The notes beneath the pieces are model-generated. The model was not told the DNA's origin and did no database searches. It was given only the letters and a program-made list of their open reading frames with translations. The translations under genes were made by a program, and so were the position numbers. Source: Roseovarius faecimaris (lineage in GTDB: Bacteria > Pseudomonadota > Alphaproteobacteria > Rhodobacterales > Rhodobacteraceae). Taken from it: a DNA stretch of 64,000 bases. The DNA is taken from NCBI RefSeq assembly GCF_009762325.1, contig NZ_CP034348.1, positions 3,478,501 through 3,542,500 of the forward strand, given 5' to 3'. Shown here one piece after another: positions 44,703-62,143 of the stretch. The first letter of the stretch is position 1. Each line of letters begins with the position of its first letter.

Positions 44703-44703
44703 G

Positions 44704-44744
44704 GTGACAGTATGGTGGCACATCCTGCCAGATAGTGACAGTAT
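44704..44744. promoter_or_regulatory. Operator region of the WYL regulator / GST pair
   Basis: GTGACAGTAT occurs twice (44704-44713 and 44735-44744), 31 bases apart, on either side of the inverted repeat TGGCA-CATCC-TGCCA (44716-44730). The repeats begin right at the regulator's start codon, so binding there would repress both divergent genes. Confidence 0.6.
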
Positions 44745-44782
44745 CGAACGCCAGCGCTTGTGCATCAGCGAGGAGAGACGAC

Positions 44783-45484
44783 ATGCTGACCCTGCTCACC
44801 TTCGGACCTAGTTTCGAGATGCCCAGCCACAGCCCGTTTTGCGTCAAGGCAATGGCGCTTTTGCATCTTTCAGGGCAGGACTGGCAGCCGAAATATCTTT
44901 CAGATCCGCGCAAGATGCCGCTGGGCCGTCTGCCTGTTCTGAAGACGGCGGAGGGGCGGCTGATCCCCGACAGCGCGCATATCCAGGCGTATCTGGAGGC
45001 TGAAGGAGCGGCGTTTGACGCGGGTCTGTCCGCGCAGGACAAGGCCCGTTCACATGCGCTGATCAGAATGGTTGAAGGGCATCTTGCGGCCGGGATGGCG
45101 CATGACCGATGGCTGCGCGACGAGTGTTGGCCAGAGGTCCGCGAGGCCTTTTTCAACCGGGTGCCGCGGATGATGCGCGGCCCGGTATCCGGTATGATCC
45201 GGCGCAAGGTGCGCGCGGCGATGATGATCAACGGCATCGCGCAATTCAGCGAAGAAGAGCGGTTGGCGCGGCTGGCGCAGGACCTTGAGACCATAAGCAC
45301 GACACTCGGCACTGGGCCGTTTCTCTTTGGCGAGCGCCCTACGGCCGCCGATGCTGCCATCGCGCCCGTGCTCGATATGATCCGCACCCTGCCCTGTGAC
45401 ACCGGGCTGCGGCGGCTGGTCCGGGGGTCTCCGGCGCTGATGGGCTATATCAAACGGGCGCGCGCCGCGCTTTACCCGATGTGA
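44783..45484 (+). CDS. Glutathione S-transferase family protein
   Basis: The 233-residue protein has a thioredoxin-like N-terminal domain (SHSPFCVKAMALL, with Ser/Cys near the glutathione site; DPRKMPLGRLPVL with the cis-Pro) and a helical C-terminal domain containing the N-capping box in RPTAADAAIAPVLDM. Substrate unknown. GGAGAG precedes the ATG. The divergent WYL regulator is the likely controller. Confidence 0.85.
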   Translation: MLTLLTFGPSFEMPSHSPFCVKAMALLHLSGQDWQPKYLSDPRKMPLGRLPVLKTAEGRLIPDSAHIQAYLEAEGAAFDAGLSAQDKARSHALIRMVEGHLAAGMAHDRWLRDECWPEVREAFFNRVPRMMRGPVSGMIRRKVRAAMMINGIAQFSEEERLARLAQDLETISTTLGTGPFLFGERPTAADAAIAPVLDMIRTLPCDTGLRRLVRGSPALMGYIKRARAALYPM

Positions 45485-45485
45485 C

Positions 45486-45517
45486 GCGAGGCCGGCATGT
45501 CAGGGCCGGATGAGCGG
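45486..45517. repeat. Dispersed 3'-end repeat, right-half copy
   Basis: The stretch beginning GCGAGGCCGGCATGTC and ending CGGATGAGCGG resembles the right arm of the long hairpin at 58515-58583. It lies two bases after the GST stop and between convergent genes. Confidence 0.55.
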
Positions 45518-45522
45518 CCGCC

Positions 45523-47778
45523 TCAACGGCGCTTGCGGGCCACCTTGCGCTTGGTCTTGTCGGCTTTCCGTTTGGCCTGGCCCGCCTTGCGGCGTGGTGC
45601 CTTGCCGCCCCGCGCGCCAGGCTTGCGCGTCACCGTCTTGCCATCAAGGCTGACCAGTTCCAGCGCCAGACCACCCGTCACCGGAGCCGCTTCGCTTAGC
45701 TTCACGGTGACACGTTGGCCCAGACCGATCACCAGCCCGCTATCCTCGCCGGTCAGCGTGGCGGCATCGCGATCGAAGCGGAAAAACTCCCGCCCGAGCG
45801 AGCGCACCGGAATGAGCCCGTCAGCCCCGGTTTCGTCCAGCCGCACGAAGGCCCCGAATTTGGCCACGCCGCTGATCCGGCCGGTAAATGCCTCGCCGAT
45901 GCGTTCAGAAAGAAACGCCGCGAGGTAACGGTCATTCGTATCGCGCTCGGCCATCATCGAGCGGCGCTCGGTGTCCGAGATATGCTCACCCGTGCTTTGC
46001 AGCGTCTCGATATCGCGCGGGGTCAGCCCGTCCTCGCCCCAGCCATGCGCCGAGATCAGCGAACGGTGCACGATCAGGTCGGCATAGCGCCGGATCGGCG
46101 AGGTGAAATGCGCATAGGACGCCAGAGCCAGCCCGAAATGGCCGAAATTCGCGGGCGCATAATAGGCCTGTGTCATCGACCGCAGGGTGGCCATGTTGAT
46201 CACTTCCGAATGGTCCGTGTCCTGCGCGGCATGCAAAAGCTGGTTGAGGTGCTGCGTCTTCAGCGCCTGCCCCTTGGCCAGGACGAGCCCGGCGGCATCG
46301 GCCACGTCGCGCAGCGTCTCCAGCTTCTCCGGCGGCGGCTCCTCGTGCACCCGAAACAGAAGCGGTGAGCGTTTGGCAATCAGCGTCTCGGCGGCGGCGA
46401 CATTGGCCAGCACCATGCATTCCTCGATGATCTTATGCGCCTCCAGCCGGTCGGCGAAATTGACGCTGAGCACCTTGCCTTCCTCGCTGAGCTCGACCTT
46501 GCGCTCGGGCAGGTCCAGATCGAGCGGCTGGCGGCGGTTGCGCGCGTCTTTCAGCGCCTCATGCGCGGCATAAAGCGGCTTGATGACCTCCTCCATCAGC
46601 GGCGCGCATGCCTCATTGGGCGCGCCATCCATGGCCGCCTGCACCTCGTGGTAGTTGAGCGAGGCGGGCGAGCGCATCAGGCCACGCACGAAGCGGTGAC
46701 CGATCTTTTCGCCATGGGCGTCGATCTGCATGCGCACGGCGATACAGGCGCGCGGCACGCCTTCATGCAGGGAACACAGATCGCCCGAAAGCCGGTCGGG
46801 CAGCATCGGCACGACGCGGTCGGGGAAATAGCTGGAATTGCCGCGCTTGCGCGCCTCCTGATCCAAAGCAGAGCCAGGGCGCACGTAATAGGCCACATCG
46901 GCAATCGCGACCCAGATCACATGCCCGCCCTCGTTTCCGGGGTCGTCATCGGCATGGGCATAGACCGCGTCGTCATGGTCGCGCGCATCGGCGGGGTCGA
47001 TGGTGATCAGCGGCAGCTCGCGCAGGTCCTCGCGGCCATTCAGGCCCGCCGGTTTCATGCGGTCCGCCTCGGCGATCACCTCGTCGGGGAAGTCGTCCGG
47101 GATCCCATGCTGGTGAATCGCAATAAGGCTGACGGCCTTGGGCGCGGTCGGATCGCCCAGACGGTCGGTAATCCGCGCCGAGGGCAAGCCAAGCCGGTCC
47201 TTGGGCCCGGCCTGTTCGGCCTCGACCAATTCGCCATCCCTGGCACCGTTCACCGCATCAGCAGCCACGCGCCATTCCTTGCCGTCGCCCTTGTCGATGG
47301 GCAGGATGCGCCCGCCCTCGCCGCGTTTGCGGAAAATGCCCAGCACCTTGAGCGGGTTGGTCCCGATCCGGCGGATCAGCTTGCCTTCATACTGGTGCGG
47401 CTCGCCCGTCACCTCCTGCACGCGGGCGAGGATCCGGTCGCCTTCGCCCAGTGCCGGATCCGAGGCGCGCGGGATCACCAGAACCTTGGGTTCCGCCGCT
47501 TCGCCATGCCACTCCATCGGGCGCGCGGTCAACTCTCCGTCCGGGGTCTGGCCGGTCACTTGCAACAACGCCACGGGCGGCAGGCGGTCCGGGTCGCGAT
47601 AGGTCTTCTTGCGCTTTTCGAGATGCCCTTCTGCCTCCAGCTCTTTCAGCATGCGCTTGAGGTCGATCCGGTCCGCGCCCTTGATGCCGAAGGCCCGGGC
47701 GATATCGCGTTTGGAAGTGAGGGTCGGGTTGTCGGAAATCCATTGCAGGATTTCGTCCTTCGTCGGCAGGGTGCTCAT
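45523..47778 (-). CDS. rnr: Ribonuclease R
   Basis: The 751-residue enzyme has an N-terminal winged helix (DIARAFGIKGADRIDLKRML), cold-shock domains, the RNB catalytic core with TIDPADARDHDDAVYA (magnesium Asp residues), an S1 domain (about 620-700) and a lysine/arginine-rich tail (GKAPRRKAGQAKRKADK). It degrades structured RNA from the 3' end and takes part in RNA quality control. Confidence 0.96.
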   Translation of the reverse strand: MSTLPTKDEILQWISDNPTLTSKRDIARAFGIKGADRIDLKRMLKELEAEGHLEKRKKTYRDPDRLPPVALLQVTGQTPDGELTARPMEWHGEAAEPKVLVIPRASDPALGEGDRILARVQEVTGEPHQYEGKLIRRIGTNPLKVLGIFRKRGEGGRILPIDKGDGKEWRVAADAVNGARDGELVEAEQAGPKDRLGLPSARITDRLGDPTAPKAVSLIAIHQHGIPDDFPDEVIAEADRMKPAGLNGREDLRELPLITIDPADARDHDDAVYAHADDDPGNEGGHVIWVAIADVAYYVRPGSALDQEARKRGNSSYFPDRVVPMLPDRLSGDLCSLHEGVPRACIAVRMQIDAHGEKIGHRFVRGLMRSPASLNYHEVQAAMDGAPNEACAPLMEEVIKPLYAAHEALKDARNRRQPLDLDLPERKVELSEEGKVLSVNFADRLEAHKIIEECMVLANVAAAETLIAKRSPLLFRVHEEPPPEKLETLRDVADAAGLVLAKGQALKTQHLNQLLHAAQDTDHSEVINMATLRSMTQAYYAPANFGHFGLALASYAHFTSPIRRYADLIVHRSLISAHGWGEDGLTPRDIETLQSTGEHISDTERRSMMAERDTNDRYLAAFLSERIGEAFTGRISGVAKFGAFVRLDETGADGLIPVRSLGREFFRFDRDAATLTGEDSGLVIGLGQRVTVKLSEAAPVTGGLALELVSLDGKTVTRKPGARGGKAPRRKAGQAKRKADKTKRKVARKRR

Positions 47779-47830
47779 GAAACCGGCCTAGCATGGCTGA
47801 TGCGGGGCGTCATCCGGGAAATGCTTGTCG

Positions 47831-47880
47831 CGCCCTTGCGTGCGCGCCGCGCGAGGCAGCCTGTCAGGGCTGACGAGCGG
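47831..47880. repeat. Dispersed 3'-end repeat copy
   Basis: CGCCCTTGCGTGCGCGCC followed by GCGAGGC and ending CTGACGAGCGG. The core is shared with the copy at 58515-58583. It overlaps the 3' end of the DUF2064 gene (stop at 47864-47866). Confidence 0.65.
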
Positions 47881-48454
47881 CGGACAGATCGGCGGCGGTG
47901 TCCACGTCCCGGAGCGTGTCGGTGAGCGCCACGCGATCACGCTCAAAGGCGCGCAGCGTATCGGCCAGCGCATGTTCGGTGGACCAGCGCACATTCCGGA
48001 ACAGCCCCGAGGGCACCGCCCGCACCCGTTTCAGCCCCACCAGCCAATAGCCCCCATCCGGCGCCGCGCCAAACACCGCCTCATGCCGCCCCAGCGCCGC
48101 GAAGGCCCGCGCGATCTGAGGCTTGCCCACACCGGGAATATCCGCGCCGATAATGCAGACCGGCCCGGGCGGCAGGCTAAGGAACACGCGCCCCATTCGG
48201 TCCCCCAGACCGCCCTTGCCTTGCGGCATACGTGGCAGATGCGCGGGCCAGATGCGGCTCATCAGCCCCTCACGGTCGGGCGACACGGCCAGAACCAGAT
48301 CCCACCGCGGATCTTCGACGCGGGCCAGCAGCGACCGCACCTGTCGGCGGAACCACCACGCGGCAGGCACCATTCCGATTTCGCGCCCGAGCCGCGTTTT
48401 GACCCGGCCCGGGCGCGGCTCTTTCACCATGACCACCAGCTTGGGGCGGATCAC
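47864..48454 (-). CDS. DUF2064 / TIGR04282-type glycosyltransferase-like protein
   Basis: The 196-residue protein has a GT-A-like fold with MVKEPRPGRVKTRLG near the N-terminus, IIGADIPGV and the GAAPDGGYWLVGL motif. Relatives are annotated as nucleotidyl- or glycosyltransferases; the true reaction is unclear. It overlaps the GNAT gene by four bases and is the last gene of the dapE operon. Confidence 0.85.
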   Translation of the reverse strand: MIRPKLVVMVKEPRPGRVKTRLGREIGMVPAAWWFRRQVRSLLARVEDPRWDLVLAVSPDREGLMSRIWPAHLPRMPQGKGGLGDRMGRVFLSLPPGPVCIIGADIPGVGKPQIARAFAALGRHEAVFGAAPDGGYWLVGLKRVRAVPSGLFRNVRWSTEHALADTLRAFERDRVALTDTLRDVDTAADLSAARQP

Positions 48455-48876
48455 AGGGCGCGCTCCATCATCCGGTGCGGGAGGCCGCCGGCATCGTCAA
48501 AGACCGGCCCGTAGGCGACAAAGCCCAGCGCCTCGTAAAAGTCCAGGGCATAGGTCTGTGCGCCCAGTTCGGCGCGGGTGACATCGGGCAGGGCGCGCAA
48601 CCGGTCCAGACACGCCTCGATCAGCCGCAGCCCCAGGCCGACGCCGCGATGCGAGGGCAGAACGCAGACCCGGCCGATCTTGCCGGTTCCATCCTTGATC
48701 AGGATACGGGCGGTGCCCACGGGAACATCTCCGTCCAGCGCCAGAAGATGCAGCGCCTCGCCGTCACGGCCATCCTGTTCCAGATCGGGCGCAACACCCT
48801 GTTCCTCGACAAAGACCGCACGGCGCACCGCGTGGCAGGCCGACAGATCTTCGGTTGGGACGATCTCGACACTCAC
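48451..48876 (-). CDS. GNAT family N-acetyltransferase
   Basis: The 141-residue acetyltransferase has motif A in [21 protein letters not shown] (acetyl-CoA pyrophosphate loop) and an ElaA-like opening ([21 protein letters not shown]). The acceptor is unknown. It overlaps dapE upstream and the DUF2064 gene downstream by four bases each. Confidence 0.9.
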
Positions 48877-50024
48877 GCGAAATAGTCCTTCAGGATGCGG
48901 GCATAGATCGCCTTGAGCTGACGGATCTGCGCCACCTCAACCCGTTCATCCACCTGGTGCATGGTCTTGCCGACAAGGCCGAACTCCACCACCGGGCAAT
49001 GATCCTTCACAAACCGCGCGTCCGACGTGCCGCCAGAGGTGGACAGCTCAGGCCGCACCCCTGTTTCGGCCTCCACCGCTTTTGTCACCATCTCCGACAA
49101 CTCTCCCGGCGGGGTCAGAAAGCTTTCGCCCGAGACCTTCACCTCCATCGCCGCCGTCACCCCTGTCTCTTCGGCGATCCGGTCCAGTTCGCTCTGCATC
49201 CAGCCGATCAGGCTCTGACTAGAATGGGCGTCGTTGAAGCGGATATTGACCGTGGCGCGGCATTGCGCCGGAATGACGTTGGTCGTGGGGTTGCCGGTGT
49301 CGATGGTGACGACCGCCAGCGTCGAGGGATCGAAATGCGCCGTGCCGGTGTCAAGCTCATGCGAGGCCAGCCGGTCCACCAGCCGCGCCATGGCCGGTAC
49401 CGGGTTGACCGCGCGGTGCGGATAGGCCGAATGGCCCTGCACGCCGGTCAGGGTGATCCAGGCCGAAAGCGACCCGCGCCGCCCGATCTTGATCATCTCG
49501 CCCATATGGGTGGGGCAGGTCGGCTCTCCGACCAGGCAGGCGGTCATGCGCTCGCCTTCGCGCTGCATCCAGTCGAGCAGGGCGGTCGTGCCGTCCACGG
49601 CATCGCCCTCTTCATCACCGGTGATCGTCAGGATAATGGCCCCCTCGGGCGGGGCCTCTTGCACCATGTCCACGGCCGCCGCCACAAAGGCCGCCACACC
49701 CGATTTCATGTCGGTCGCGCCGCGCCCCCAAAGCTGGCCGTCCTTCTCGACCGCGCCAAAGGGCGGGACGGACCACGCTGCTTCGTCCCCCACCGGCACG
49801 ACATCGGTGTGCCCGTTGAACCCGAAGGAGCGGTTCGCGCCCTTGTCGCCCCAGCGGGCAAAAAGATTGGCCACCCCGCCACGATCGACGCGGGTGCAGG
49901 CAAACCCGGCCTCGCTCAGCACCTGCTCAAGCAACACCAGGGCGCCGCCTTCGTCAGGGGTCACCGAGGCGCAGCGGATCAGCTTTGCGGTCAGGTCAAC
50001 GGGGTCGAGCGGGGCATGTGTCAT
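48873..50024 (-). CDS. dapE: Succinyl-diaminopimelate desuccinylase
   Basis: The 383-residue M20 enzyme carries the zinc and catalytic motifs [28 protein letters not shown] and ITGDEEGDA, and the DapE-specific [11 protein letters not shown]. It removes succinate from N-succinyl-LL-diaminopimelate for lysine and peptidoglycan. It heads a three-gene overlapping operon; dapD is 2.8 kb away on the same strand. Confidence 0.95.
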
Positions 50025-50324
50025 GAACTGTCCTGTCGGCGGGAAAATCGTCGGTCCTGACCTAGCGCGCTTTGCCAGCGCACGCAAATGTGGCGGCAAA
50101 GGCGCGTATCTCTGCGATTTTCGCCGAAGACCCCCGTTAACCCCTTAACAGGTCATCTGAAACTTGCTACCAAATCCTCAATAAATGACCCGAGGCAGGG
50201 CAATCAGCAGGGCCGCACACGGCCCGGTATCGAGCGGACACAGAGCAGGTCCACAAGAAACGACAGGAGCGGAGCAGATCCGCCGCGCTGATCATTGCGC
50301 TGCCTCACGGGATATGAGGCGGGT
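50025..50324. other. Gene-free region between dapE and the anchor-L gene
   Basis: 300 bases with no credible gene. It holds the divergent promoters. An inverted repeat GTTAA-CCCC-TTAAC lies at 50136-50149. No riboswitch pattern is seen. Confidence 0.5.
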
Positions 50325-51011
50325 ATGGGTGCAGCTTTGAAACATCCCATTTGTCGCGGGACAAGCGCGACAGAGATGGCGCAGGCGCTGCTTGGCGCCG
50401 GGGCCACCGTCCTCAATGCGTCCTGTTCCGGGGATCCGGCCCTTTCGGGCACCTGCTCTGGTGACGACACTGGCGCATCAGGGGGGACGCCGGGCCGTCG
50501 CGGGGCTGTTCTGGCGACCGGTGTCGGAGCCGGTGACACGGCTCAGCTCGATGTGGATTTCATCCCTGCCGGAGATGTGTTGACGATGCGTCTGCTTTTC
50601 ACGGGCGCGCGCCTGTCTCTCTCCGCCGAGGGGACCGGTCCCGATAGTTTCGCGGTCTGGATCAACGGGCGGCCTGTCCCTCTGTCTCCGGGCGAAAGCG
50701 CCTCCGCCTTTGGCAAAGCGCAGGGCTCACACGGGCTGAGCGCCGCGATGACGCTGATCGTCCCGGTCCATGCCGGGCAGGTGAACTCGATCCGTTTCGG
50801 CCTTGCCGGGGATAAGGCCGGATCAGAGGGCGTGACCCTGAGGATCGTCGGGGAACCGGTGCGCATCTCGCCGCGCCGCGAGGAGGACGGCCCCCTGGTC
50901 TGCGGCACCGGCACCGGATCGGGCGATGTTCTGGCCAATGATGTCGAGAGCATGGGCGGCACGCTGATCATCACCCATGTCGATGATCTGCCCACCGGCG
51001 AGGCGGCCTGA
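50325..51011 (+). CDS. Choice-of-anchor L-like protein ending in a cut Ig-like repeat
   Basis: The 228-residue product has a choice-of-anchor L-like core (AQALLGAGATVLNASCSGDPAL, an LDVDFIPAGDVLTMRLLFTGA strand pair, then SFAVWINGRPVPLSPGE) and finishes with the start of a cadherin/Ig-like repeat (DVLANDVESMGGTLIITHVD) that is cut short. Such proteins sit outside the cell. No signal peptide is evident. Its TGA is followed at once by the ATG of the Hint gene in the same frame. Confidence 0.6.
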   Translation: MGAALKHPICRGTSATEMAQALLGAGATVLNASCSGDPALSGTCSGDDTGASGGTPGRRGAVLATGVGAGDTAQLDVDFIPAGDVLTMRLLFTGARLSLSAEGTGPDSFAVWINGRPVPLSPGESASAFGKAQGSHGLSAAMTLIVPVHAGQVNSIRFGLAGDKAGSEGVTLRIVGEPVRISPRREEDGPLVCGTGTGSGDVLANDVESMGGTLIITHVDDLPTGEAA

Positions 51012-52109
51012 ATGGGGTGGATCGGGCTTTTCGACGGCGACACGCCCCGCTTTGACCGCAAGGGGCTGACCAATGCGCGTCTGGCCTCCAGCCCGCTGCC
51101 GCCGCCCGACACGATGATGCCCCGCGGCACACTTCTGGCCGAAACGCGGCTGTCGCCCGACGGGCGTCCGCGGATGCTCCTGCAGATCGGACGCGATCAT
51201 CCCTGGCAGTTCAGCCTGTCGCTGCAGGCGCTGCCCGGCGGCGGGTTCATCCTGATCGAAACGCAGGAAGACCGGATGCGCCATGTCACCCTGCCGCATG
51301 TGCCCGATGGGCGGATGGATGTGATCCGCCTGACCTATCGCTGGGACGCGCCGGGCAAGACCGGGCGGCTGACCATGGAACGGCCCGAGGCCGACACCTC
51401 CCATTCGGTCGAGATGCCGCCGCCGCATGCCCTGCCCATGGCGGATCTCGCGCAGGTCATCATCCACCCGCATTACCGCGCCTCGGAAACCGAGACCGGC
51501 ATCAGCCTTCTGGCCCTGTCGGACCGGATCGAGCCGCAAGGCCCCCTGCCCGGGCTGACCGGCAGCGTGCCGGTGGCCACCCCGTCAGGCTTCATGCCCG
51601 CGGGGGCGCTCAGGCGCGGCGATCTGGTGCAGACCCAGTCGGGCGAGGCGGTGCCGGTCCTGCAAACCGTGCGCCAGGTCATGCCCGCCCACGGCACGCT
51701 GCGTCCGGTGCGCCTGCGGGCGCCCTATTTCGGGCTGCGCCGCGATATCGTGGTGGCCCCGCATCAGCGCCTGGTGATCAGCGGCAGTCAGGTCGAGTAT
51801 CTCTTTGGCCGCGAGGCGGTGCTGGTCCCGGCCCGGCACCTGATCAACAATGTCTCGGCCCTGCCTGCGACCGGCCCGGACCTGGTGACCTATCATCACC
51901 TGCTTTTGCCCAATCACGAGGTGATCAATGCAGCGGGCTGCCCGGTGGAGAGCCTCTATGTGGGTCGCCTGCGCCGTAAACCCGACGCGCTGGCCGCAAG
52001 CCTGCTGGCCCCGTTCGACCGCGCGCATCTGCCCGAGCATCCGCAACCGGTCTGGCCGGTGCTGAAACCGTTCGAAGCGGTGGCGCTGGCCCTCAGCCGG
52101 GTGGCGTGA
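51012..52109 (+). CDS. Hint domain-containing protein
   Basis: The 365-residue protein starts MGWIGLFDGDTPRF and has a lectin-like N-terminal half (about 1-170) and a Hint (hedgehog/intein) domain from about 185 (VPVATPSGFMPAGALRRGDLVQTQSG), with VVAPHQRLVISG and LLPNHEVINAAG (the block with His/Asn). Hint domains self-process, usually by cleavage. The first catalytic residue, normally Cys or Ser, appears as Val-Ala-Thr here, so autoprocessing is uncertain. The start codon abuts the upstream stop. Confidence 0.8.
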   Translation: MGWIGLFDGDTPRFDRKGLTNARLASSPLPPPDTMMPRGTLLAETRLSPDGRPRMLLQIGRDHPWQFSLSLQALPGGGFILIETQEDRMRHVTLPHVPDGRMDVIRLTYRWDAPGKTGRLTMERPEADTSHSVEMPPPHALPMADLAQVIIHPHYRASETETGISLLALSDRIEPQGPLPGLTGSVPVATPSGFMPAGALRRGDLVQTQSGEAVPVLQTVRQVMPAHGTLRPVRLRAPYFGLRRDIVVAPHQRLVISGSQVEYLFGREAVLVPARHLINNVSALPATGPDLVTYHHLLLPNHEVINAAGCPVESLYVGRLRRKPDALAASLLAPFDRAHLPEHPQPVWPVLKPFEAVALALSRVA

Positions 52110-52113
52110 GGCC

Positions 52114-52145
52114 GCGGCGCACTCGTCCGCCCCTTACGTGTCGGC
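52114..52145. repeat. Dispersed 3'-end repeat, left-half copy
   Basis: CTCGTCCGCCCCTTACGTGT, then CGGCC. 22 of 25 positions match the complement of the right arm of the hairpin at 58515-58583. It lies between the 3' end of the Hint gene and that of the convergent hypothetical gene. Confidence 0.55.
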
Positions 52146-52469
52146 CTCGTCAAAAAACGGCGTCACCTGCGCGACGATCACGGCGTTTTCCTCAAGCGCG
52201 CGTTGCATCAACCCGCGCTCCTCGCCGCTGATCTCATGGCCCTCGGCCTCGCGCTCGGCCAGGGTGCCGTAGCCGGTCACATCGAGCGGCGCCATGTCGG
52301 CCTGTTTCAGGATTGCCACGCTCTCGCGCACGGCCTCGGCCTCGTCCACGCCGGAGGCATAGAGCATCAGCGCCGCCCCGGTGGCCCCATCGGGCAGGCC
52401 ATCGCCCTCCTTGCGGCCCACTTCGACAAGGAGGGTATAGACCTGCTGTTTGCTGTTTGTCCTGGCCAT
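52134..52469 (-). CDS. Hypothetical protein
   Basis: The 111-residue acidic product (MARTNSKQQVYTLLVEVGRK...) has ALMLYASGVDEAEAVRESVA and a GYGTLAEREAEGHEISGEE segment. It is conserved-looking but of unknown function; no signal or membrane segment. Convergent with the Hint gene. Confidence 0.75.
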   Translation of the reverse strand: MARTNSKQQVYTLLVEVGRKEGDGLPDGATGAALMLYASGVDEAEAVRESVAILKQADMAPLDVTGYGTLAEREAEGHEISGEERGLMQRALEENAVIVAQVTPFFDEADT

Positions 52470-52530
52470 GCCCGCGTTCCTTGGTCATTCGCGCGGCCCT
52501 GTCAAGCGCCGCGCCGCCGGTGCCTATCGG

Positions 52531-52773
52531 TCAGCGCATCCTGCGATAGGCCCAGATCAACAGGCTCGCCCCGGCGATGCCGACAAAAAGCTGCGGAATC
52601 CAGCTGTTCGCGGCATATATCCCGATCAGCCCAAGTATGGCATTGAGCACAACCGCGCCGATGATCCCCAGCACGACGTTCAGCAGAATGCCGGTGTTGG
52701 CCTTCATGATCATGCTGGCAATCCAGCCCGCAAGCCCGCCGACGATGATGGATGCGATGATCCCGAGTCCCAT
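52531..52773 (-). CDS. GlsB/YeaQ/YmgE family stress-response membrane protein
   Basis: The 80-residue protein has three hydrophobic segments and the glycine pattern GLGIIASIIVGGLAGWIASM (start of the transglycosylase-associated family), followed by GILLNVVLGIIGAVVLNAIL. Such small inner-membrane proteins are induced by stress. Function unknown. Confidence 0.92.
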   Translation of the reverse strand: MGLGIIASIIVGGLAGWIASMIMKANTGILLNVVLGIIGAVVLNAILGLIGIYAANSWIPQLFVGIAGASLLIWAYRRMR

Positions 52774-52836
52774 GGCACGTCCCTCCGCGTTTGCCTATCC
52801 TGCTGCCCCGACATCGCTTGGCGGCAATCGGTTCCC

Positions 52837-53664
52837 TCAGTCGCGCAGAAGCTCGTTGATGCCGGTCTTGGAGCGGGTCTTCTCATCCACCCGCTTCACG
52901 ATCACGGCGCAATAAAGGTTGATGTTGTTCTTGGTCGGCATGGAGCCCGCCACCACCACCGAATAGGGCGGCACCTCGCCATACATCACCTCGCCCGTCT
53001 CGCGATCCACGATCTTGGTGGATTTACCGATGAAGACACCCATGCCCAACACCGAGCCTTCGCGCACGATGCAGCCCTCGACCACTTCGGACCGCGCCCC
53101 GATAAAGCAATTGTCCTCGATGATGGTCGGGCCCGCCTGCATCGGCTCCAGCACGCCGCCGATCCCGACGCCGCCCGACAGGTGCACGTTCTTGCCGATC
53201 TGGGCGCAGCTGCCCACGGTGGCCCAGGTATCGACCATCGTGCCTTCGTCGACATAGGCCCCGAGGTTCACGAAGGACGGCATCAGCACCACACCCGGCG
53301 CGATATAGGCCGAGCGGCGCACCACGCAGTTGGGCACCGCGCGAAAGCCCGCAGCGCCCCATTCATTGTCGCCCCAGTCTTTCCATTTGCTGTCGACCTT
53401 GTCCCACCAGGCGCCGCCCTGAGCCGAGCCCTCCTGGCGTTCCATATCCTTCAGGCGGAAGCCCAGCAGCACCGCTTTCTTGGCCCATTGGTTCACATGC
53501 CAGTCGCCGTTTGCCTGGCGCTCGGCCACGCGCAGGCTGCCGCTGTCGAGCGCGTTCAGCGTGTCCTCGATCGTTTCGCGTGTCTCGCCTGTGGTGGCGG
53601 GGGTGATCGTGTCGCGCGCCTCCCAGGCGGCTTCGATGGCGGTTTCCAGTTGGGCGTTGGACAT
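52837..53664 (-). CDS. dapD: Tetrahydrodipicolinate N-succinyltransferase
   Basis: The 275-residue enzyme has an N-terminal helical domain and a left-handed beta-helix of hexapeptide repeats ([41 protein letters not shown]). It transfers succinate from succinyl-CoA to tetrahydrodipicolinate. Together with dapE it fixes the succinylase branch of lysine and diaminopimelate synthesis. Confidence 0.97.
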
Positions 53665-54067
53665 TGGGGGCTACCTTCTTTTTGCATGGGGTCTGCCGAC
53701 CCTGTCGGTGTCCTTATCCCGAAACATGCGCCCATGATCAATCGCCTGCGCCTGTTTTGGTCTGAGTTTCGACATATATCAGCCGTTCAACACCGCCGCC
53801 CGCGGCCCCGGATACCCGGCGCAGAAGCGCGACCGACCCCCTCCTCTGACGGTCGAAACAGCGGCAATTCACGAGAAATCAGCGGCACAGTGCCCAATTT
53901 CACCAAGATGTTTCCTTTTTTTGGCCACGTTTATTTCGAATATCTGAAGCTTGGGCGATTGTTGGGATGGCCCGAGTGACATGCAATCGACGATTGCAGC
54001 TTTTGACGCAACCCGTCGCGGCGCGGTTCGAAAGGCGATGCGCGACAGGTTAGAAGGGGACGTTGAA
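53665..54067. other. Gene-free region between dapD and TadE
   Basis: 403 bases without a supported gene between divergent dapD and tadE. The AT-rich part near 53910-53950 (CCTTTTTTTGGCCACG) may hold the tadE promoter, but I see no convincing -35/-10 pair. An in-frame ATG at 53981 gives a longer tadE but lacks a ribosome site. Confidence 0.5.
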
Positions 54068-54481
54068 ATGGGACGCAAAACCAAACACTTGTTCCGGCGG
54101 GCAAGAGGGTTCAGGAAGGATGCCGATGGCAGTGCCTCCATCGAATTCGTGCTCTGGATGCCCGTTTTCATGTTCATCCTGATGCTCACGATTGATGCCA
54201 GCATCCTGTTTATGAGCCAGTCCAACTACTGGAGCATTTCAAGGGATACCGCGCGTCTCGTGTCACGCCACGCGATCACGGAAGAACAAGCCAAAACCTA
54301 TGCCGAAGCGGCAGCGGTCAACAAATTCGCCTCGCCCACGGCGAGTGTCACCAAAAACGGTCAGACCGTGACCGTGGTTCTGACCTCGCCGGCGAGTCAG
54401 CTGACGGTGTTCAACCTGTTCAGCTTCGCCACGCCCTACCAGGTTGAAGCCTCGACAACACAAGCTCTGGAGCCGATCTAA
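54068..54481 (+). CDS. TadE family pilus assembly protein
   Basis: The 137-residue pseudopilin-like protein has a DADGSASIEFVLWMPVFMF motif (the TadE hydrophobic helix preceded by a Glu, about residues 20-48) and a short extracytoplasmic C-terminal beta region. TadE is a minor pseudopilin of the Tad/Flp pilus. AAGGGG precedes the ATG. Its stop overlaps the TadG start (TAATG). No other tad gene lies in the window. Confidence 0.88.
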   Translation: MGRKTKHLFRRARGFRKDADGSASIEFVLWMPVFMFILMLTIDASILFMSQSNYWSISRDTARLVSRHAITEEQAKTYAEAAAVNKFASPTASVTKNGQTVTVVLTSPASQLTVFNLFSFATPYQVEASTTQALEPI

Positions 54482-55998
54482 TGCCTAAGCCGACACACCC
54501 GATCAGGGCCCGCCTCGCCGCCTATGCCCGGGATGATGACGGAACGGGCACGGTTTTCAGTATTTTCGCTGTCGCAATGCTGCTGATCATCGGCGGTATC
54601 GCCATTGATGGTTCGAACTTCTGGCGCAATCAGCAACAGATGCAGCAAACCGCGGACGTGGCTGCGCATGCCGGGGTGGTCGAGCTAACCATGAATGGCA
54701 CCCAAGGGGCGGCCAGTGCGGCCGCGACCTTTGTCAACAACAACATGCCGTCCGATCTCTACGGCAACCTTTATGCCGACCAGAACAGCGATATCGTGCT
54801 GGTGCATTACGACGAGAACAACAACTCGATCAGCACCTCCGGCACCCCCAATGCCGTGCGTGTGCAACTGCACCGCAACAGCGCCTCCGGCAATCCGCTG
54901 CGCACCATCGCGCTCCGGGTGTCGGACCTGTTCCTGATCTCCGAGCAGACATCCCTGTCAAACTGGAACCTGTCGGTGACCGGCGTCGCTGCGCTGGCGG
55001 TGTTCAAGGGCTGCAACAGCACCGACGGCATTTACGCCAAGGACAAGGTGCGCCTGTCGTCGAGCAACACGTTCGGCTCCGGATATTGCCTGCACAGCCA
55101 GGATGAAATCTGGATGTCGCAGCAGAACAATTTCATGGCCAATTCGGGCCTGAGCATGCCGAATCTGGATTCCTGCGGCAGTAAATGCACCGATGGCGCC
55201 AATCCCGGCTCGGAGGCCGCCGCCTTTGAGCGGAACCTGATCCTGCCCGACATCAACGCGCATATCCAGGGGGCGTATGATTCGTTCCTGGGCACCGGCG
55301 ATCCGGCCATCAAAGACGCGTTCTTCAGCGATAAATATATCGAGAACAGCGCCCTGAATGCGCTTAAAACCGTGGGCATCAAGACCGCCGGACTTCAGAC
55401 CGGCTCGGTTGTGAACATGACGGATGCCCAGTTCGAAGAGCTGGCCGATGTGCCCGAAGGGCTGGTCTATAACGTGACCTGCAAATCCAACGGCAACCCG
55501 GACAGCGTGCGCATCGAATTTGGCGAGGAAAAGCAGAAGCCGGGCAAGAACGGTGAAAAATACTTTACCCCGTCGCAATTCAGCGATGTGGCGATCATCA
55601 CCAATTGCGGCTTCGAGTTCCTGACCGCGACCGATATCAAGTCATCGGTTCTGATTTCGACCCGCCTTGCATCCACCCACACGATCACCGCCAGCTCGGG
55701 CGCCAGCATCGGTGACCTTTTGGGCGGCTGCGCGGTCGACGAGCAAACCGTCGTCATGGGGATGTCGGGGATGAGCGTTCCGGCGGATTTCGCAGGCTCG
55801 AATGTCAGCTTCATCGTCGATAACGACATTCACCTGTCGGCGTCCAGCTCGTCCTCCACCATCAACCATTCCGGGGTGAGTTTCCATGCCTCCGGGTCGG
55901 TCGAAATCGCCGCCAATCACACCTTTGATTCCTGTGCCACCCCGCCCAGCGGGCTGATCCCCACCCTCAAGGTGATCCGGCACGTGATTCCAAGCTGA
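54481..55998 (+). CDS. TadG family pilus assembly protein
   Basis: The 505-residue protein has an N-terminal single membrane helix after DGTGTVFSIFAVAMLLIIGG and a GSNFWRNQQQMQQTADVAAHAG stretch typical of Tad secretin-associated TadG-like proteins. A large extracytoplasmic part contains several Cys. It is probably coupled to TadE by the TAATG overlap. Confidence 0.87.
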   Translation: MPKPTHPIRARLAAYARDDDGTGTVFSIFAVAMLLIIGGIAIDGSNFWRNQQQMQQTADVAAHAGVVELTMNGTQGAASAAATFVNNNMPSDLYGNLYADQNSDIVLVHYDENNNSISTSGTPNAVRVQLHRNSASGNPLRTIALRVSDLFLISEQTSLSNWNLSVTGVAALAVFKGCNSTDGIYAKDKVRLSSSNTFGSGYCLHSQDEIWMSQQNNFMANSGLSMPNLDSCGSKCTDGANPGSEAAAFERNLILPDINAHIQGAYDSFLGTGDPAIKDAFFSDKYIENSALNALKTVGIKTAGLQTGSVVNMTDAQFEELADVPEGLVYNVTCKSNGNPDSVRIEFGEEKQKPGKNGEKYFTPSQFSDVAIITNCGFEFLTATDIKSSVLISTRLASTHTITASSGASIGDLLGGCAVDEQTVVMGMSGMSVPADFAGSNVSFIVDNDIHLSASSSSSTINHSGVSFHASGSVEIAANHTFDSCATPPSGLIPTLKVIRHVIPS

Positions 55999-56058
55999 CC
56001 GTAACGGCGCGCACCGGGACAGACCCGGCGCGCCCTTACGACACTCTGACTGATCGGG

Positions 56059-56084
56059 AAAGCGCTGTTACTGACAGCGCTTTT
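56059..56084 (+). terminator. Terminator after tadG overlapping the ialB stop
   Basis: AAAGCGCTGT (56059-56068) pairs perfectly with ACAGCGCTTT (56074-56083) over a five-base loop, followed by TCTGC on the plus strand. The hairpin includes the TAA and last codons of the convergent ialB gene (56068-56082). It probably ends tadG transcription. Confidence 0.7.
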
Positions 56085-56607
56085 CTGCTTCTTCCACTGC
56101 CGCGGTAAAGCCCATCAGCGAGAAGGTATCGGTTGTCTGTGTGCCGCGCGAGGAACGCGCCTGCAACACGGCCGTCGCACCGCGTTTCAGGGCCGAAATG
56201 ATCTTGGCGTCATCGGCCGTGGAGGCAGGCCAGGCCCATTCGCCCTCGGTGAACAGCTCAAACTCGTTGCCGCCGATATCGAGATTGACGGTCGACCCGC
56301 TGGCAAAGGGATAGCCGCCGGTGAAGGCAAGCTGCCCCTTCACGCCGGCACCGGGCCGGTAGAAGGTCATCAGCAGGATATCGCCCCGGCGCACCGCCAC
56401 GACGCGCCCGTCCTTCTTGTTGACCGTTTCCGTGGGCGACGACACCGCCCAGCATTCGCGCGGATTCTGATCCTCAAACACCGACCAGGCGGTTTTTGCC
56501 GCCACCTGATTGGTGCTTTCTTCCTGCGCCATCACACCCGTTCCGGCCAATGCCAGCGCCGCGCCAGCAATCCCGCGTGCAATGAATGACCCTATTTGTG
56601 ATCCCAT
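56068..56607 (-). CDS. Invasion-associated locus B (IalB) family protein
   Basis: The 179-residue protein from ATG 56607 has a signal peptide (ARGIAGAALALAGTGVMAQE) and the IalB pattern W-S-V-F followed by P-R-E-C-W-A-V-S-S-P and a C-terminal Cys, likely a disulphide pair. IalB proteins are periplasmic and of unclear biochemical role. GGAGG lies eight bases before the ATG. Confidence 0.88.
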   Translation of the reverse strand: MGSQIGSFIARGIAGAALALAGTGVMAQEESTNQVAAKTAWSVFEDQNPRECWAVSSPTETVNKKDGRVVAVRRGDILLMTFYRPGAGVKGQLAFTGGYPFASGSTVNLDIGGNEFELFTEGEWAWPASTADDAKIISALKRGATAVLQARSSRGTQTTDTFSLMGFTAAVEEAEKRCQ

Positions 56608-56790
56608 CTGTCCAGCCTCCAAGCTGTCCTTTGCCTCAAAACCTAGTCCCGTGCGCCCCCGTTTCCCGGATTATTTCTTTGGCACGGTCATTTCTTACTC
56701 GACATTGCAATATTAGACTGAAACAGGCGAGAGTTGGAAGCCGGAATTGGCAGAATTTCGCGCGCAGCCGCAGTTCGGGAGATCACAATC

Positions 56791-57786
56791 ATGACACATC
56801 CGGTTCCAATGGTGGAGATTTGGCGCGGCCCGGTGGTGGAAAGCCAGCATTCGGGCCATGCCGTGATCTGTGACGAGACCGGACAGATCACCCAAAGCTG
56901 GGGCAACCCGGATCAGGTGGTTTATCCGCGCAGTTCCGCCAAGATGATCCAGGCGCTGCCGCTGATCGAAAGCGGCGCGGCCGATGCGCAGGGGCTTACC
57001 ACCGAACAGCTTGCTCTGGCTTGTGCGTCGCATTCCGCCGCGGCGATTCACACCGTGCGGGTGATGGCCTGGCTCGATCATCTGGGCCTGGGCGAGCCCG
57101 ACCTGCGCTGCGGCCCGCAGGAGCCCGAGGACATTCCCGCCCGCGACGCGCTAATCCGTGCGGGCGACGCGCCCTGTCAGGTTCACAATAACTGTTCGGG
57201 CAAGCATTGCGGGTTTCTGACCCTCAACCAGCATCTCGGCGGCGGGCCGGACTATATCGAGATCGATCACCCGGTGCAGCGTGCCTGCCTCGCGGCCTTC
57301 GAGGAGGTCACGGATCTCGCCAGCCCCGGCTGGGGGATCGACGGCTGCTCGGCTCCGAACTTTCTGACCACGCTGCATGGCATGGCCCGCGCCATGGCCT
57401 TTTTCGCCGCTGCCCGCGAGGGGCAGGGCATGCGTGCCACGGCGGCCGCCCGGCTGCGCGACGCGATGATCGCCCATCCCGAGCTCGTGGCCGGAGAAAG
57501 CCGCGCCTGCACCCAGCTTATGCGCGCCTGCACCGAACCGGTGGCGCTCAAGACCGGGGCCGAGGGGTTTTTCATCGCCATCCTGCCGCGCCGCAAGCTG
57601 GGCGTGGCGCTGAAGATCACCGATGGCGCCGGCCGCGCCTCCGAAAGCGCCATTGCGGCGCTGCTTGTGCGCCTTGGCGTGCTCGATGCCGGGCACCCGG
57701 CGGCAAAACGCTTCCTCAACCCTCCCGTGCTGAGCCGCCGGGGCTTTGATGCCGGTCAGATCAAACCCTCTGCCGGACTTCTCTGA
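56791..57786 (+). CDS. L-asparaginase, Rhizobium etli (class 3) type
   Basis: The 331-residue enzyme has the class 3 signatures YPRSSAKMIQALPL (catalytic Ser-x-x-Lys) and NNCSGKHCGFL (Ser-Gly-Lys with the conserved Cys), unlike E. coli-type enzymes. It hydrolyses asparagine to aspartate and ammonia. The start MTHPVPMVEIWRGP is preceded by a GAGATCACAATC stretch, a weak ribosome site. Confidence 0.92.
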   Translation: MTHPVPMVEIWRGPVVESQHSGHAVICDETGQITQSWGNPDQVVYPRSSAKMIQALPLIESGAADAQGLTTEQLALACASHSAAAIHTVRVMAWLDHLGLGEPDLRCGPQEPEDIPARDALIRAGDAPCQVHNNCSGKHCGFLTLNQHLGGGPDYIEIDHPVQRACLAAFEEVTDLASPGWGIDGCSAPNFLTTLHGMARAMAFFAAAREGQGMRATAAARLRDAMIAHPELVAGESRACTQLMRACTEPVALKTGAEGFFIAILPRRKLGVALKITDGAGRASESAIAALLVRLGVLDAGHPAAKRFLNPPVLSRRGFDAGQIKPSAGLL

Positions 57787-57835
57787 CGCGGCGCAAAGGC
57801 GCTTGCCACCGCCGGGATTTGCTTTCATTCTGGGC

Positions 57836-57989
57836 GCGTTCTCAGGGCGGGGTGAAATTCCCCACCGGCGGTAACGGGAGGCTGATACCCAGCGCCCGAA
57901 GCCCGCGAGCGGCCCCGGATTGTCCGGGGTGTCAGCAGATCTGGTGCGACTCCAGAGCCGACGGTCACAGTCCGGATGGAAGAGAGCGA
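57836..57989 (+). promoter_or_regulatory. FMN riboswitch (RFN element)
   Basis: Conserved pieces of the RFN aptamer appear in order: CAGGGCGGGGTGAAATTCCC, CACCGGCGGTAA, GGAGGCTGATAC, GATCTGGTGCGACTCCAGAG, CCGACGGTCACAGTCCGGAT, GGAAGAGAG. Flavin mononucleotide binding would switch off the downstream ribH gene, whose ATG is 85 bases away. Confidence 0.97.
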
Positions 57990-57999
57990 CAAGGGTCAT

Positions 58000-58027
58000 G
58001 CGGGCGCGTCTGCCCGCTGCCTCCTTT
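58000..58027 (+). terminator. Expression platform hairpin of the FMN riboswitch
   Basis: GCGGGC and GCCCGC form a six-pair stem over GCGTCT, followed by TGCCTCCTTTCGTTT. Located between aptamer and ribH, it is the likely ligand-controlled terminator. Confidence 0.65.
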
Positions 58028-58073
58028 CGTTTGATGCTCTGGGCGACGTGTCAAAATGTGAAAGGAGACCGAT

Positions 58074-58508
58074 ATGACACTTCCCCGCTATGCCTTCATC
58101 AAGGCGAACTGGCATGCCGAGATCGTGGACCAGGCGCTGACCGGCTTTGCCGAGCTGATCCCAATGGCACAGATCGACGTCTTTGACGTGCCCGGCGCGT
58201 TCGAGATGCCGCTTCTGGCGCGCGATCTGGCCGCCTCCGGGCGCTATGCGGCGGTGGCCGCCGCGGCCTTTGTCGTGGATGGCGGCATCTACCGGCACGA
58301 TTTCGTGGCGCAGGCCGTGGTCGATGGGCTGATGCGCGCCGGGCTTGATACGGGCGTGCCGGTCCTGTCGGTGTCGCTCACCCCGCATCAGTATCAGGAG
58401 ACGGCGCATCACACTGCGATCTATAAGGCGCATTTCGTCGAGAAAGGGCGCGAGGCCGCCCGCGCGGCGCTGATGATCGGTCAGACCCGCGCGGGCCTCG
58501 CCGCCTGA
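58074..58508 (+). CDS. ribH: 6,7-dimethyl-8-ribityllumazine synthase (RibH2 type)
   Basis: The 144-residue protein begins YAFIKANWHAEIVDQALTGF, typical of the RibH2 branch found in Rhizobiales and Rhodobacterales, and has DVPGAFEMPLLAR and the AAFVVDGGIYRHDFVAQ catalytic-loop segment. It condenses a ribityl-uracil with dihydroxybutanone phosphate, the penultimate riboflavin step. GAAAGGAGA precedes the ATG. It is controlled by the upstream FMN riboswitch; other rib genes are absent here. Confidence 0.93.
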   Translation: MTLPRYAFIKANWHAEIVDQALTGFAELIPMAQIDVFDVPGAFEMPLLARDLAASGRYAAVAAAAFVVDGGIYRHDFVAQAVVDGLMRAGLDTGVPVLSVSLTPHQYQETAHHTAIYKAHFVEKGREAARAALMIGQTRAGLAA

Positions 58509-58514
58509 ACGAAC

Positions 58515-58583
58515 GCGCCGCTCATCGGGCCCTTGCGTGCCCGCCTCGCGAGGCCGCCACGTAAGAGGCGGATGAGCAGCGCG
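58515..58583. repeat. Long imperfect hairpin, complete copy of a dispersed repeat
   Basis: Arms starting GCGCCGCTCATC and ending GATGAGCAGCGCGC enclose CCTTGCGTGCCCGCC / GGCGGCCACGT-type complementary stretches with the central palindrome GCCTCGCGAGGC. It fills most of the space between the 3' ends of ribH and the convergent YciI gene. Related copies lie at 45486, 47831 and 52114. Confidence 0.75.
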
Positions 58584-58584
58584 C

Positions 58585-58899
58585 TCAGATCTCGTGGATT
58601 TCCGCCACTTCCACGCTGCCCGACCCGCTGTTCAGGATCGGGCAGCCCCCGGCCATCTCGCAGGCCGCGTTGATATCGTCCGCGATCAGGATCGAATAGC
58701 CCGAGAGCGGGTTTGCCCCCCCGTCATCCACGACCCGGTCGCGATGCACCGTCTTCGACAGGCCCACCGGGTTGCCCGCATCGGCCACAGCGGCACCAAG
58801 CCCGGCGAGCCAGCCCATCCAGGCCGCGATCATCTTCTCTCCCTCTTCCTCGGACTGAGGCATCTCACCGCCATGATAGGCGAGCATGAATTTCGGCAT
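58585..58899 (-). CDS. YciI family protein
   Basis: The 104-residue ferredoxin-like-fold protein starts PKFMLAYHGGEMPQ and has the segment DDGGANPLSGYSILIADDIN with G-Y-x-I and the conserved Asp, then AGGCPIL. Family members are DGPF/YciI-like proteins, sometimes sigma-factor partners. No such partner is adjacent. Confidence 0.88.
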   Translation of the reverse strand: MPKFMLAYHGGEMPQSEEEGEKMIAAWMGWLAGLGAAVADAGNPVGLSKTVHRDRVVDDGGANPLSGYSILIADDINAACEMAGGCPILNSGSGSVEVAEIHEI

Positions 58900-59081
58900 G
58901 GTCGTATCCTTTCCTGTTCGGGTTTCCTCGTGCCACGAGCCTGTCCGGGGTCAAAGATAACATCTTTGCCCGTCAAAAAGATCAGCGAAATATCATCGCC
59001 CCCTTTTCCCGCGAAACCGCCCTACACCCGCCGCATTCCAAAACTAGGGTCACATGACCATACCGAAGGAGCACCGGCGAC

Positions 59082-59804
59082 GTGAAGCTCTCGCGCAAGA
59101 AAAACGGCAATCTGGAGATGCTGCGCCTGACGCTGTCGCGGCGCGGCAGGCCGTCGTTCACGCTGTTCCCGATGGTTCATGTCGCTGACCGGGCCTTTTT
59201 CCGCCAGGTGGCGCGGGAGGCGGATGCGCATGATCTCGTGCTCAAGGAAGGCGTACGCGCCGCCGCCGGACGCACCGCCAACCGCAGCCACCGCATTGCC
59301 ACCGCCGGGCATCGCACCCTGGCGGCCCAGTCGCGCAGCATGTCAGAGAGCGGCGGCGACCACTGGATAAACGCCGATCTGGCCCCGGACAAGTTCGGCC
59401 GGCACTGGCGCAAACTGCCGCTGCTGCGGCGCGCATTGTTTCATATCCTGCTGCCGGTTCTCTCGCTGTTCCTGCGCCTGCCCGCCGCCCGGCGCCAGAT
59501 GATCGACGTGCTGGCAGAGCTTGGCCCGCAGGACGATGGCTCCATCGACGAGATTTTTGGCGACGGGTTTCACGACGCGGTCGTCAAGCGGCGCGATCAG
59601 GCGCTGATCGACGCCTGCATCGATGTCATCGACACCTGGGACGAGGGCAAGGTGGCCGTGGTCTGGGGGGCTGCGCATATCCCGCCACTGGTGATGGTGC
59701 TGATGGGCACCCATGGCTATCGGATCACGTCACGCCAATGGATCACGGCCATGACCGCCCCCGGACAGCCCGTTCAGGACGTGGTGAATTCCGACCGCGC
59801 ATAA
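59082..59804 (+). CDS. TraB/PrgY-like protein
   Basis: The 240-residue product from GTG 59082 (AAGGAG ten bases before) has MVHVADRAFFRQVAREAD near the N-terminus and VVWGAAHIPPLVMVLMGTHGY near the C-terminus, the two conserved blocks of the TraB/PrgY (TIKI-like) family, with one hydrophobic segment (about 120-137) between. Function in bacteria is unsettled. Its 3' end overlaps that of serB by 31 bases on the other strand. Confidence 0.6.
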   Translation: MKLSRKKNGNLEMLRLTLSRRGRPSFTLFPMVHVADRAFFRQVAREADAHDLVLKEGVRAAAGRTANRSHRIATAGHRTLAAQSRSMSESGGDHWINADLAPDKFGRHWRKLPLLRRALFHILLPVLSLFLRLPAARRQMIDVLAELGPQDDGSIDEIFGDGFHDAVVKRRDQALIDACIDVIDTWDEGKVAVVWGAAHIPPLVMVLMGTHGYRITSRQWITAMTAPGQPVQDVVNSDRA

Positions 59805-60898: not shown

Positions 60899-62053
60899 AT
60901 GGCTATGACGACACCCGGCACGCGGCCGGCCAATCCGCGTTTTTCCTCCGGCCCCTGCGCCAAACCCCCCGCATATTCCGTATCCAAACTGGCCGACGCG
61001 CCCCTCGGCCGTTCGCACCGCGCCGCCGTAGGCAAGGAACGCCTGAAAGCGGCCATCGAAGGCACGCGCGAGGTGCTGGGCATTCCGGCTGACTACAAGA
61101 TCGGCATCGTGCCCGCCTCTGACACCGGTGCGGTGGAAATGGCCATGTGGAACCTTCTTGGCGCCCGCAAGGTCGAGATGCTGGCCTGGGAAAGCTTCGG
61201 CTCGGGCTGGGTCACGGATGTGGTCAAACAGCTCAAACTCGACGCGGACGTAAAGACCGCCGAGTATGGCCAGATCGTCGATCTCGCCACCGTGGACACC
61301 GATAATGACGTGGTCTTCACCTGGAACGGCACGACCTCGGGCGTGCGCGTGCCGGATGGCGACTGGATCAAGACCGATCGCGCGGGGCTGACCATCTGCG
61401 ACGCCACCTCCGCCGCCTTCGCGCAGGACCTGCCCTGGGACAAGCTCGATGTGACCACGTTCAGCTGGCAAAAGGTGCTGGGCGGCGAGGCCGCGCACGG
61501 CATGCTGATCCTGTCCCCCCGTGCAGTTGACCGGCTGGAAAGCTATACCCCGGACTGGCCGCTGCCCAAGATTTTCCGCCTTACGAAAGCGGGCAAGCTG
61601 ATCGACGGCATCTTCGAGGGGGCCACGATCAACACCCCCTCGATGCTGGCGGTTGAGGATTACCTTCTGGCGCTCGACTGGGCGCGTTCGGTCGGCGGGC
61701 TCGACGGGCTGATCGGCCGGGCCACGGCCAATGCGGCGGTGCTGCAGGATTTCTGTGCGCGCACCGACTGGATCGCCAACCTGGCCGAAGACCCGGCGAC
61801 GGCGTCCAACACCTCGGTCTGCCTGAAGTTCACCGATGACCGCATCACCGATGGCGCTGCCTTTGCCAAGGCGGTGGCCAAGCGGCTGGAGGGCGAAGGC
61901 GTGGCCTTTGACATCGGCGCCTATCGCGACGCGCCTCCGGGCCTGCGCATCTGGTGCGGCGGCACGGTGGAAACTTCGGATATCGAGCTTCTGCTGCCCT
62001 GGCTTGAATGGGCGTTCGAGACCGAGATCGCAGCCCTTTCCAAAGCCGCGTAA
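60899..62053 (+). CDS. serC: Phosphoserine aminotransferase
   Basis: The 384-residue PLP enzyme opens [19 protein letters not shown] and has the Schiff-base lysine in [15 protein letters not shown] and the [11 protein letters not shown] phosphate region. It converts 3-phosphohydroxypyruvate to phosphoserine. It follows the serC leader and precedes serA in one operon. The start at ATG 60899 or the second ATG at 60905 is equally possible. Confidence 0.95.
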
Positions 62054-62055
62054 GG

Positions 62056-62111
62056 TGCGTGCAAGCACACACCCTACAGCATGATCCGTAGGGTGCGTGA
62101 TCTCACGCACC
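62056..62111. repeat. Nested hairpins between serC and serA
   Basis: GGTGCGTGA-TC-TCACGCACC (62092-62111) is a perfect nine-pair hairpin; CCCTAC (62072-62077) pairs with GTAGGG (62088-62093), and GGTGCGTG recurs at the left end with CACACACC. It lies inside the operon, 33 bases before serA. Confidence 0.65.
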
Positions 62112-62143
62112 TTCCCGACATTCCCAATCGAAGGACCACCAAC

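Follow-up and report, generated by a model that had tools for sequence, protein, structure and literature searches.

Between the converging 3' ends of two genes in Roseovarius faecimaris lies a 69-base imperfect hairpin (positions 58515-58583 of the 64,000-nt stretch of DNA analyzed here, C2:3478501-3542500, which we call the window). A first-pass annotation had connected this hairpin with full or half copies at 45486, 47831, and 52114 and suggested that all are bidirectional terminators or 3'-protecting elements of the REP/BIME type. The locus raises the questions of whether these hairpins are members of one family, which of their parts are conserved, and how they come to lie, and remain, at the ends of genes.

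All four sites are present. The focal copy is composed of two units, 58520..58549 on the minus strand (GCGAGGC GGGC ACGCAAGG GCCC GATGAGC, with a perfect 4-bp stem and a GCAA inner loop) and 58548..58577 on the plus strand (GCGAGGC CGCC ACGTAAGA GGCG GATGAGC), which have the centre GCCTCGCGAGGC in common. It starts 11 nt past the stop of the gene at 58074-58508 (+), and 7 nt separate its end from the stop of the gene at 58585-58899 (-). The second two-unit copy joins 47823..47852 (-; GCGCGGC GCGC ACGCAAGG GCGC GACAAGC) to 47851..47878 (+; GCGAGGC AGCC TGTCAG GGCT GACGAGC) and overlaps the end of the minus-strand gene 47864-48454, whose TGA stop falls in the loop of unit 47851..47878. The other two copies are single units. 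One, 45486..45515 (+; GCGAGGC CGGC ATGTCAGG GCCG GATGAGC), lies 1 nt past the stop of 44852-45484 (+), with the stop of 45523-47778 (-) 7 nt away; the other, 52121..52150 (-; ACGAGGC CGAC ACGTAAGG GGCG GACGAGT), lies 11 nt past the stop of 51012-52109 (+) and contributes the final codons and TAA stop of 52134-52469 (-). The initial description of full and half copies, one of them overlapping a stop codon, is thus accurate, as is its statement that three of the four (58520, 45486, and 52121) sit between convergent genes; the copy at 47823 is between two minus-strand genes.

Extent of the hairpin family

A genome-wide covariance search, the check proposed at the outset, found further copies: 27 distinct places in the whole 3.93-Mb genome fit our model (R1) at E<0.002, all of them on contig C2, and single hairpin units occur besides. 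An 86-base query gave 57 match rows by BLAST against the same genome, with non-self E values down to 8e-18. Together, the model and BLAST results rule out chance as the source of the family. At E 0.001, model R1 also has matches in 16 of 84 genomes of the genus and 10 of 149 genomes of the family. An exact-pattern scan for one form of the unit in a named genome collection matched 51 stretches, in records assigned to Roseovarius, Pseudaestuariivita, Cognatishimia, Pseudooceanicola, and Rhodobacteraceae and in one MAG labelled Alphaproteobacteria bacterium. An insensitive class-wide search of 289 genomes, in which no more than 18 candidates per genome were scored, found the family in the R. faecimaris genome alone.

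The phages searched held no match to the unit, and the plasmids searched gave one partial match (57% of the query, in a Streptomyces plasmid) that we judged to be due to chance. No curated Rfam model fits the 16 hairpin loci compared at E up to 1; the only model found near the focal copy was the FMN riboswitch (RF00050, 106.6 bits), at window positions 57834-57991 (+), upstream of the gene that precedes this copy. The family is described nowhere in the literature covered, a partial sample that included the available portions of PMC12306157 and PMC8266576. In a copy from another genus (G064, at L066:1501-1574), the unit arms and the centre are longer, the loops are TTGC/GCAA, and the whole copy folds into a single fully paired 74-nt palindrome.

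Anatomy of the unit and of two-unit copies

Each unit is about 28-30 nt long and can be written as GCGAGG[C-YYYY-(A)C-GNNA-G(G)-Y'Y'Y'Y'-G]AnGAGC. To avoid circularity, we searched the fetched stretches with the anchors GCGAGGC and GAnGAGC only, allowing at most one mismatch and applying no stem criterion. This search returned 163 units, 61 from R. faecimaris and 102 from relatives; 13 of them have fewer than three pairs, with chance hits among them, and are kept in all counts based on 163 units. A perfect 4-bp stem is found in 120 of the 163, whereas 2000 sets with shuffled 3' arms average 20.3 and reach 35 at most, and when the 3' arm is slid by 1 to 3 bases, no perfect stem remains. The stems themselves are diverse: those of R. 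faecimaris include CGCC, GGGC, GCGC, CGGC, AGCC, TGGC, GGCC, GAGC, and ACGC, always opposite a complementary arm. The inner loop, on the other hand, reads GNNA in 148 of 163 units (GNRA in 106) and the inverted TNNC in none. Thus, the loop and the flanks keep both their sequence and their orientation, whereas the stem is free in sequence so long as it pairs. Loops of the form C-GNNA-G are extra stable in DNA. The division into fixed and free positions indicates which features would be open to recognition by a reader protein or an RNase.

Among the two-unit copies, 56 pairs are arranged head to head and 2 tail to tail. An identical 2-nt overlap, giving GCCTCGCGAGGC, is shared by 53 of the head-to-head pairs, and 39 of the 56 combine a unit with an 8-nt loop and a unit with a 6-nt loop. 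Only 2 of the 56 have equal stems in both units, where 6.4 or 7.4 would be expected (P 0.027 or 0.011). Predicted minimum-energy folds are rod-like for most of the 21 two-unit copies of R. faecimaris, and a cloverleaf drawn by hand is weaker in energy than the predicted fold in all 21. We considered the long rod as the conserved fold and rejected it because pairing between the stems of the two units is not conserved; for the same reason, we take the short hairpin within each unit to be the conserved pairing. For the focal copy, energy minimization predicts the 69-base imperfect hairpin of the first-pass annotation, but what is conserved is a short hairpin in each of its halves.

Placement and persistence at gene 3' ends

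The stretches from R. faecimaris provide 38 rows of placement data: 14 convergent, 20 tandem, 3 in reading frames, and 1 divergent. This tally counts the focal copy twice, enters 47851 with a stop distance of 572 since it overlaps its stop, and uses genes called by a codon-usage script rather than an annotation pipeline. The copies cluster near stops, as had been proposed, and are not scattered at random relative to gene ends: 14 of the 20 tandem cases are no farther than 15 nt from the upstream stop, compared with a mean of 5.6 and a maximum of 13 in 20,000 uniform placements, and in relatives 16 of 26 do so (uniform mean 6.4, maximum 15). The RAYT-served GTAG REP family in the same genome offers a built-in control. 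Its 25 sites from 30 loci comprise 17 tandem, 6 convergent, 2 in reading frames, and 0 divergent, with 9 of the 17 tandem sites no more than 15 nt from the stop (rows read manually). Since GTAG REPs are placed similarly, a position just past a stop is typical of REPs generally and does not by itself prove a 3'-end function; for the hairpin units it may only reflect tolerance.

Units also occur inside genes. Seven R. faecimaris genes hold a single in-frame unit (four of these, in L049, L051, L053, and L054, emerged under looser criteria), always on the coding strand and with an 8-nt loop, and six of the seven share one frame, E-A-x-T-x-E-x-D/E-E. By eye, we take these genes to encode NuoL, MutL, an HrpB-like helicase, ValRS, a multidomain acyl-carrier enzyme, a dihydrolipoyl acyltransferase, and a dihydroorotase. 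The single units sit in linkers of the proteins. In ValRS, the loop holds a unit in R. faecimaris (L051:2505-2534, minus strand), but no unit is present in the remaining 26 loci of the genus included in the alignment (L209-L234). This variable loop carries different palindromes depending on the species, namely, the hairpin unit, GTAG REP pairs, and CGTC-like and CCCGGGTCAAGCCCGGG types, so that part of an essential enzyme is a hotspot for repeat insertion.

At matching gene junctions, copies recur in several species with stems that differ. Unit 47851..47878, for instance, is retained in relatives with other stems (AAGC/GCTT); its partner 47823..47852 was not seen in two genomes (G185 and G209), which have one unit where G000 has the full copy, and the junction in G230 orthologous to that of unit 52121..52150 is without the unit. 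Because this several-species sample had been picked for matches on both sides, we also examined stretches downstream of orthologous genes, which were found and fetched for 24 R. faecimaris 3' ends in three genomes. A unit is present in 6 of 15 stretches in G200, 5 of 20 in G168 (two stretches of doubtful orthology being scored as misses), and 1 of 20 in G217, compared with 0 of 115 controls; for G200 and G168, chance would account for fewer than 0.2 units per genome, even at tripled copy numbers. The best distance to the unit is 0-1 in 12 of the 55 orthologous stretches and at least 3 in the other 43, which indicates that copies are either intact or absent, with no decayed relics seen. With the unit missing from those 43, no 3' end strictly requires it. 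The gene products flanking intact copies are mostly at 60-94% identity, and the presence of intact copies beside such diverged genes suggests constraint, or else homogenisation among copies. Retention of intact orthologous copies favors some role at 3' ends, although it falls short of proof, and the intact-or-absent state makes selection testable.

With moderate confidence, we propose that these units are a RAYT-independent, REP-like hairpin family that would have spread in trans and been kept at 3' ends as a hairpin that protects mRNA or limits read-through. Reading of the unit would depend on its fixed parts, which are GCGAGG, the ATGAGC-type tail, the C-G closing pair, and the GNNA loop, with the stem merely having to pair. 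Single or paired hairpins would then be spread by a putative trans-acting enzyme, presumably by transposition. Copies are tolerated just past stop codons and in protein linkers, and some 3'-end copies are afterwards retained for long times, as in the orthologous stretches. Both convergent transcripts would likely end in a strong hairpin, shielding the mRNA 3' end or limiting read-through.

A competing explanation, which we regard as possible though doubtful, is that the units are purely selfish or neutral palindromes, inserted wherever they are tolerated, whose stems stay paired through template switching during replication. It accommodates the resemblance in placement to GTAG REPs, the lack of the unit at most orthologous sites, and the full copy in G000 where G185 and G209 hold a single unit, and template switching is able to create compensatory changes, as described in the part of PMC8794818 available to us. 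However, template switching should also invert the loops, which is at odds with the 148 GNNA and 0 TNNC loops, and the orthologous copies that persist have intact flanks and loops, with decayed relics not seen.

Two further explanations assign the copies other functions. We consider it improbable that they are binding sites on double-stranded DNA for a nucleoid protein, gyrase, or segregation factor. Such a site would fit the conserved flanks, the quasi-palindromic symmetry, and the restriction of the R. faecimaris copies to contig C2, but the conserved features, a paired variable stem and an oriented loop, are specific to a strand and to a hairpin, and a duplex needs neither. It is also improbable that the copies are bidirectional terminators, as initially suggested, of the factor-independent type. 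They are strong hairpins that directly follow stops and in many cases separate convergent genes. However, of the 19 terminator-like sites called in 44500-59500, not one coincides with any of the four copies, their 3' flanks are without a T-run by eye, and single units lie inside reading frames.

Relationship to GTAG and CGTC REPs

The assignment to the REP/BIME type is right in kind: the units are short and palindromic, mostly head to head, present in many copies, and located just 3' of genes. A RAYT-like gene, which the first-pass annotation had advised looking for, is indeed present; this single RAYT gene in the genome (NF047646, 184 bits), however, has GTAG REPs of its own at its sides rather than the hairpin unit, and the distribution of the hairpin family across genomes does not match that of RAYT. 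The GTAG REP adjoining the gene has 68 + 65 matches in the genome and belongs to a separate, uniform family. Of 30 RAYT loci fetched, 25 have GTAG hairpins and none has the hairpin unit beside the RAYT gene, the loose pattern hits at four of the loci lacking unit structure by eye. Among the genus genomes searched, a RAYT gene exceeds the cut-off in 8 of the 16 that bear the element and in 15 of the 24 that do not, and of nine element-bearing genomes without an NF047646 match, seven are also without PF01797 at E 0.01. Despite the RAYT gene in the genome and the BIME-like organisation of the units, it is thus highly improbable that they are REP/BIME elements of the classical kind, mobilized by the resident RAYT. 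One GTAG REP pair of the RAYT-linked family lies in the window, at 62050-62115, in or beside a called gene.

The hairpin family resembles the GTAG REPs and BIMEs that accompany RAYT genes (REPtrons) in its hairpin units, inverted pairs, post-stop positions, and occasional presence in reading frames. It differs from them in that no unpaired GTAG stands 5' of the hairpin, the ends being GCGAGG and GAnGAGC, in its lack of RAYT linkage, and in stems that vary within one genome. The CGTC REPs of alphaproteobacteria are a closer match. In the part of the source available to us (Di Nocera 2013, PMC3733652), these elements have no dedicated transposase, are mostly head-to-head dimers, and lie less than 20 bp from the 3' ends of convergent or tandem genes and also inside genes. 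The hairpin family likewise has no dedicated transposase by RAYT linkage, as judged by searches with NF047646 and PF01797 only, and its pairs are mostly head to head (56 versus 2 tail to tail), commonly with unlike partners (only 2 of 56 pairs have identical stems). It also shares with the described CGTC REPs the proximity to convergent and tandem 3' ends and the occurrence inside genes, including those for tRNA synthetases and repair proteins.

With respect to the unpaired tag beside the stem of CGTC REPs (CGTC, TGTC, or CCTC), the family is mixed: after removal, for this count and that of stem openings only, of the 13 units with fewer than three pairs, 40 of 150 units have CGTC adjoining the hairpin, 73 have CATC, 29 CTTC, 3 CCTC, and 1 TGTC. 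Other features set the two apart, again relative to the accessible description of CGTC REPs. A paired AT opens the stem in 0 of the 150. The 8-nt form of the unit has a 5-bp stem, a mismatch, a C-G pair, and a GNNA loop, compared with an 8-9-bp stem and a 4-5-nt loop in CGTC REPs, and in place of their CCA tail the unit has CCTCGC on that strand, a sequence fixed by our search anchor. As both the AT pair and the CCA tail are lacking, we file the family as a REP-like variant and not as a CGTC REP. Rickettsia palindromic elements, as far as they are covered in the same part of PMC3733652, are similar in being short palindromes in frame within protein-coding genes; by comparison, the in-frame cases here are single 8-nt-loop units (seven in R. 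faecimaris), and intergenic copies are the majority.

Our best reading is of a RAYT-independent, REP-like variant in Roseovarius and relatives, whose closest counterparts in print, within the portions of the literature available, are the CGTC REPs. More tentatively, the family may represent a third class of REP besides GTAG and CGTC. Its members would be read through their flanks, closing pair, and GNNA loop only, with the stem free but compensated, and would be spread by a putative enzyme acting on single-stranded DNA; selection at particular 3' ends would follow. How transposase-less alphaproteobacterial REPs spread and persist is a question left by PMC3733652, in the part seen here. To it we add the anatomy of the unit, its independence of the resident RAYT, the in-frame copies, and the intact-or-absent state at orthologous 3' ends. 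As a separate observation, one genome (G162) carries four Y1 transposase genes of 137.3 bits each, on contigs C35, C43, C68, and C96, which apparently represent a recent IS200-type expansion.
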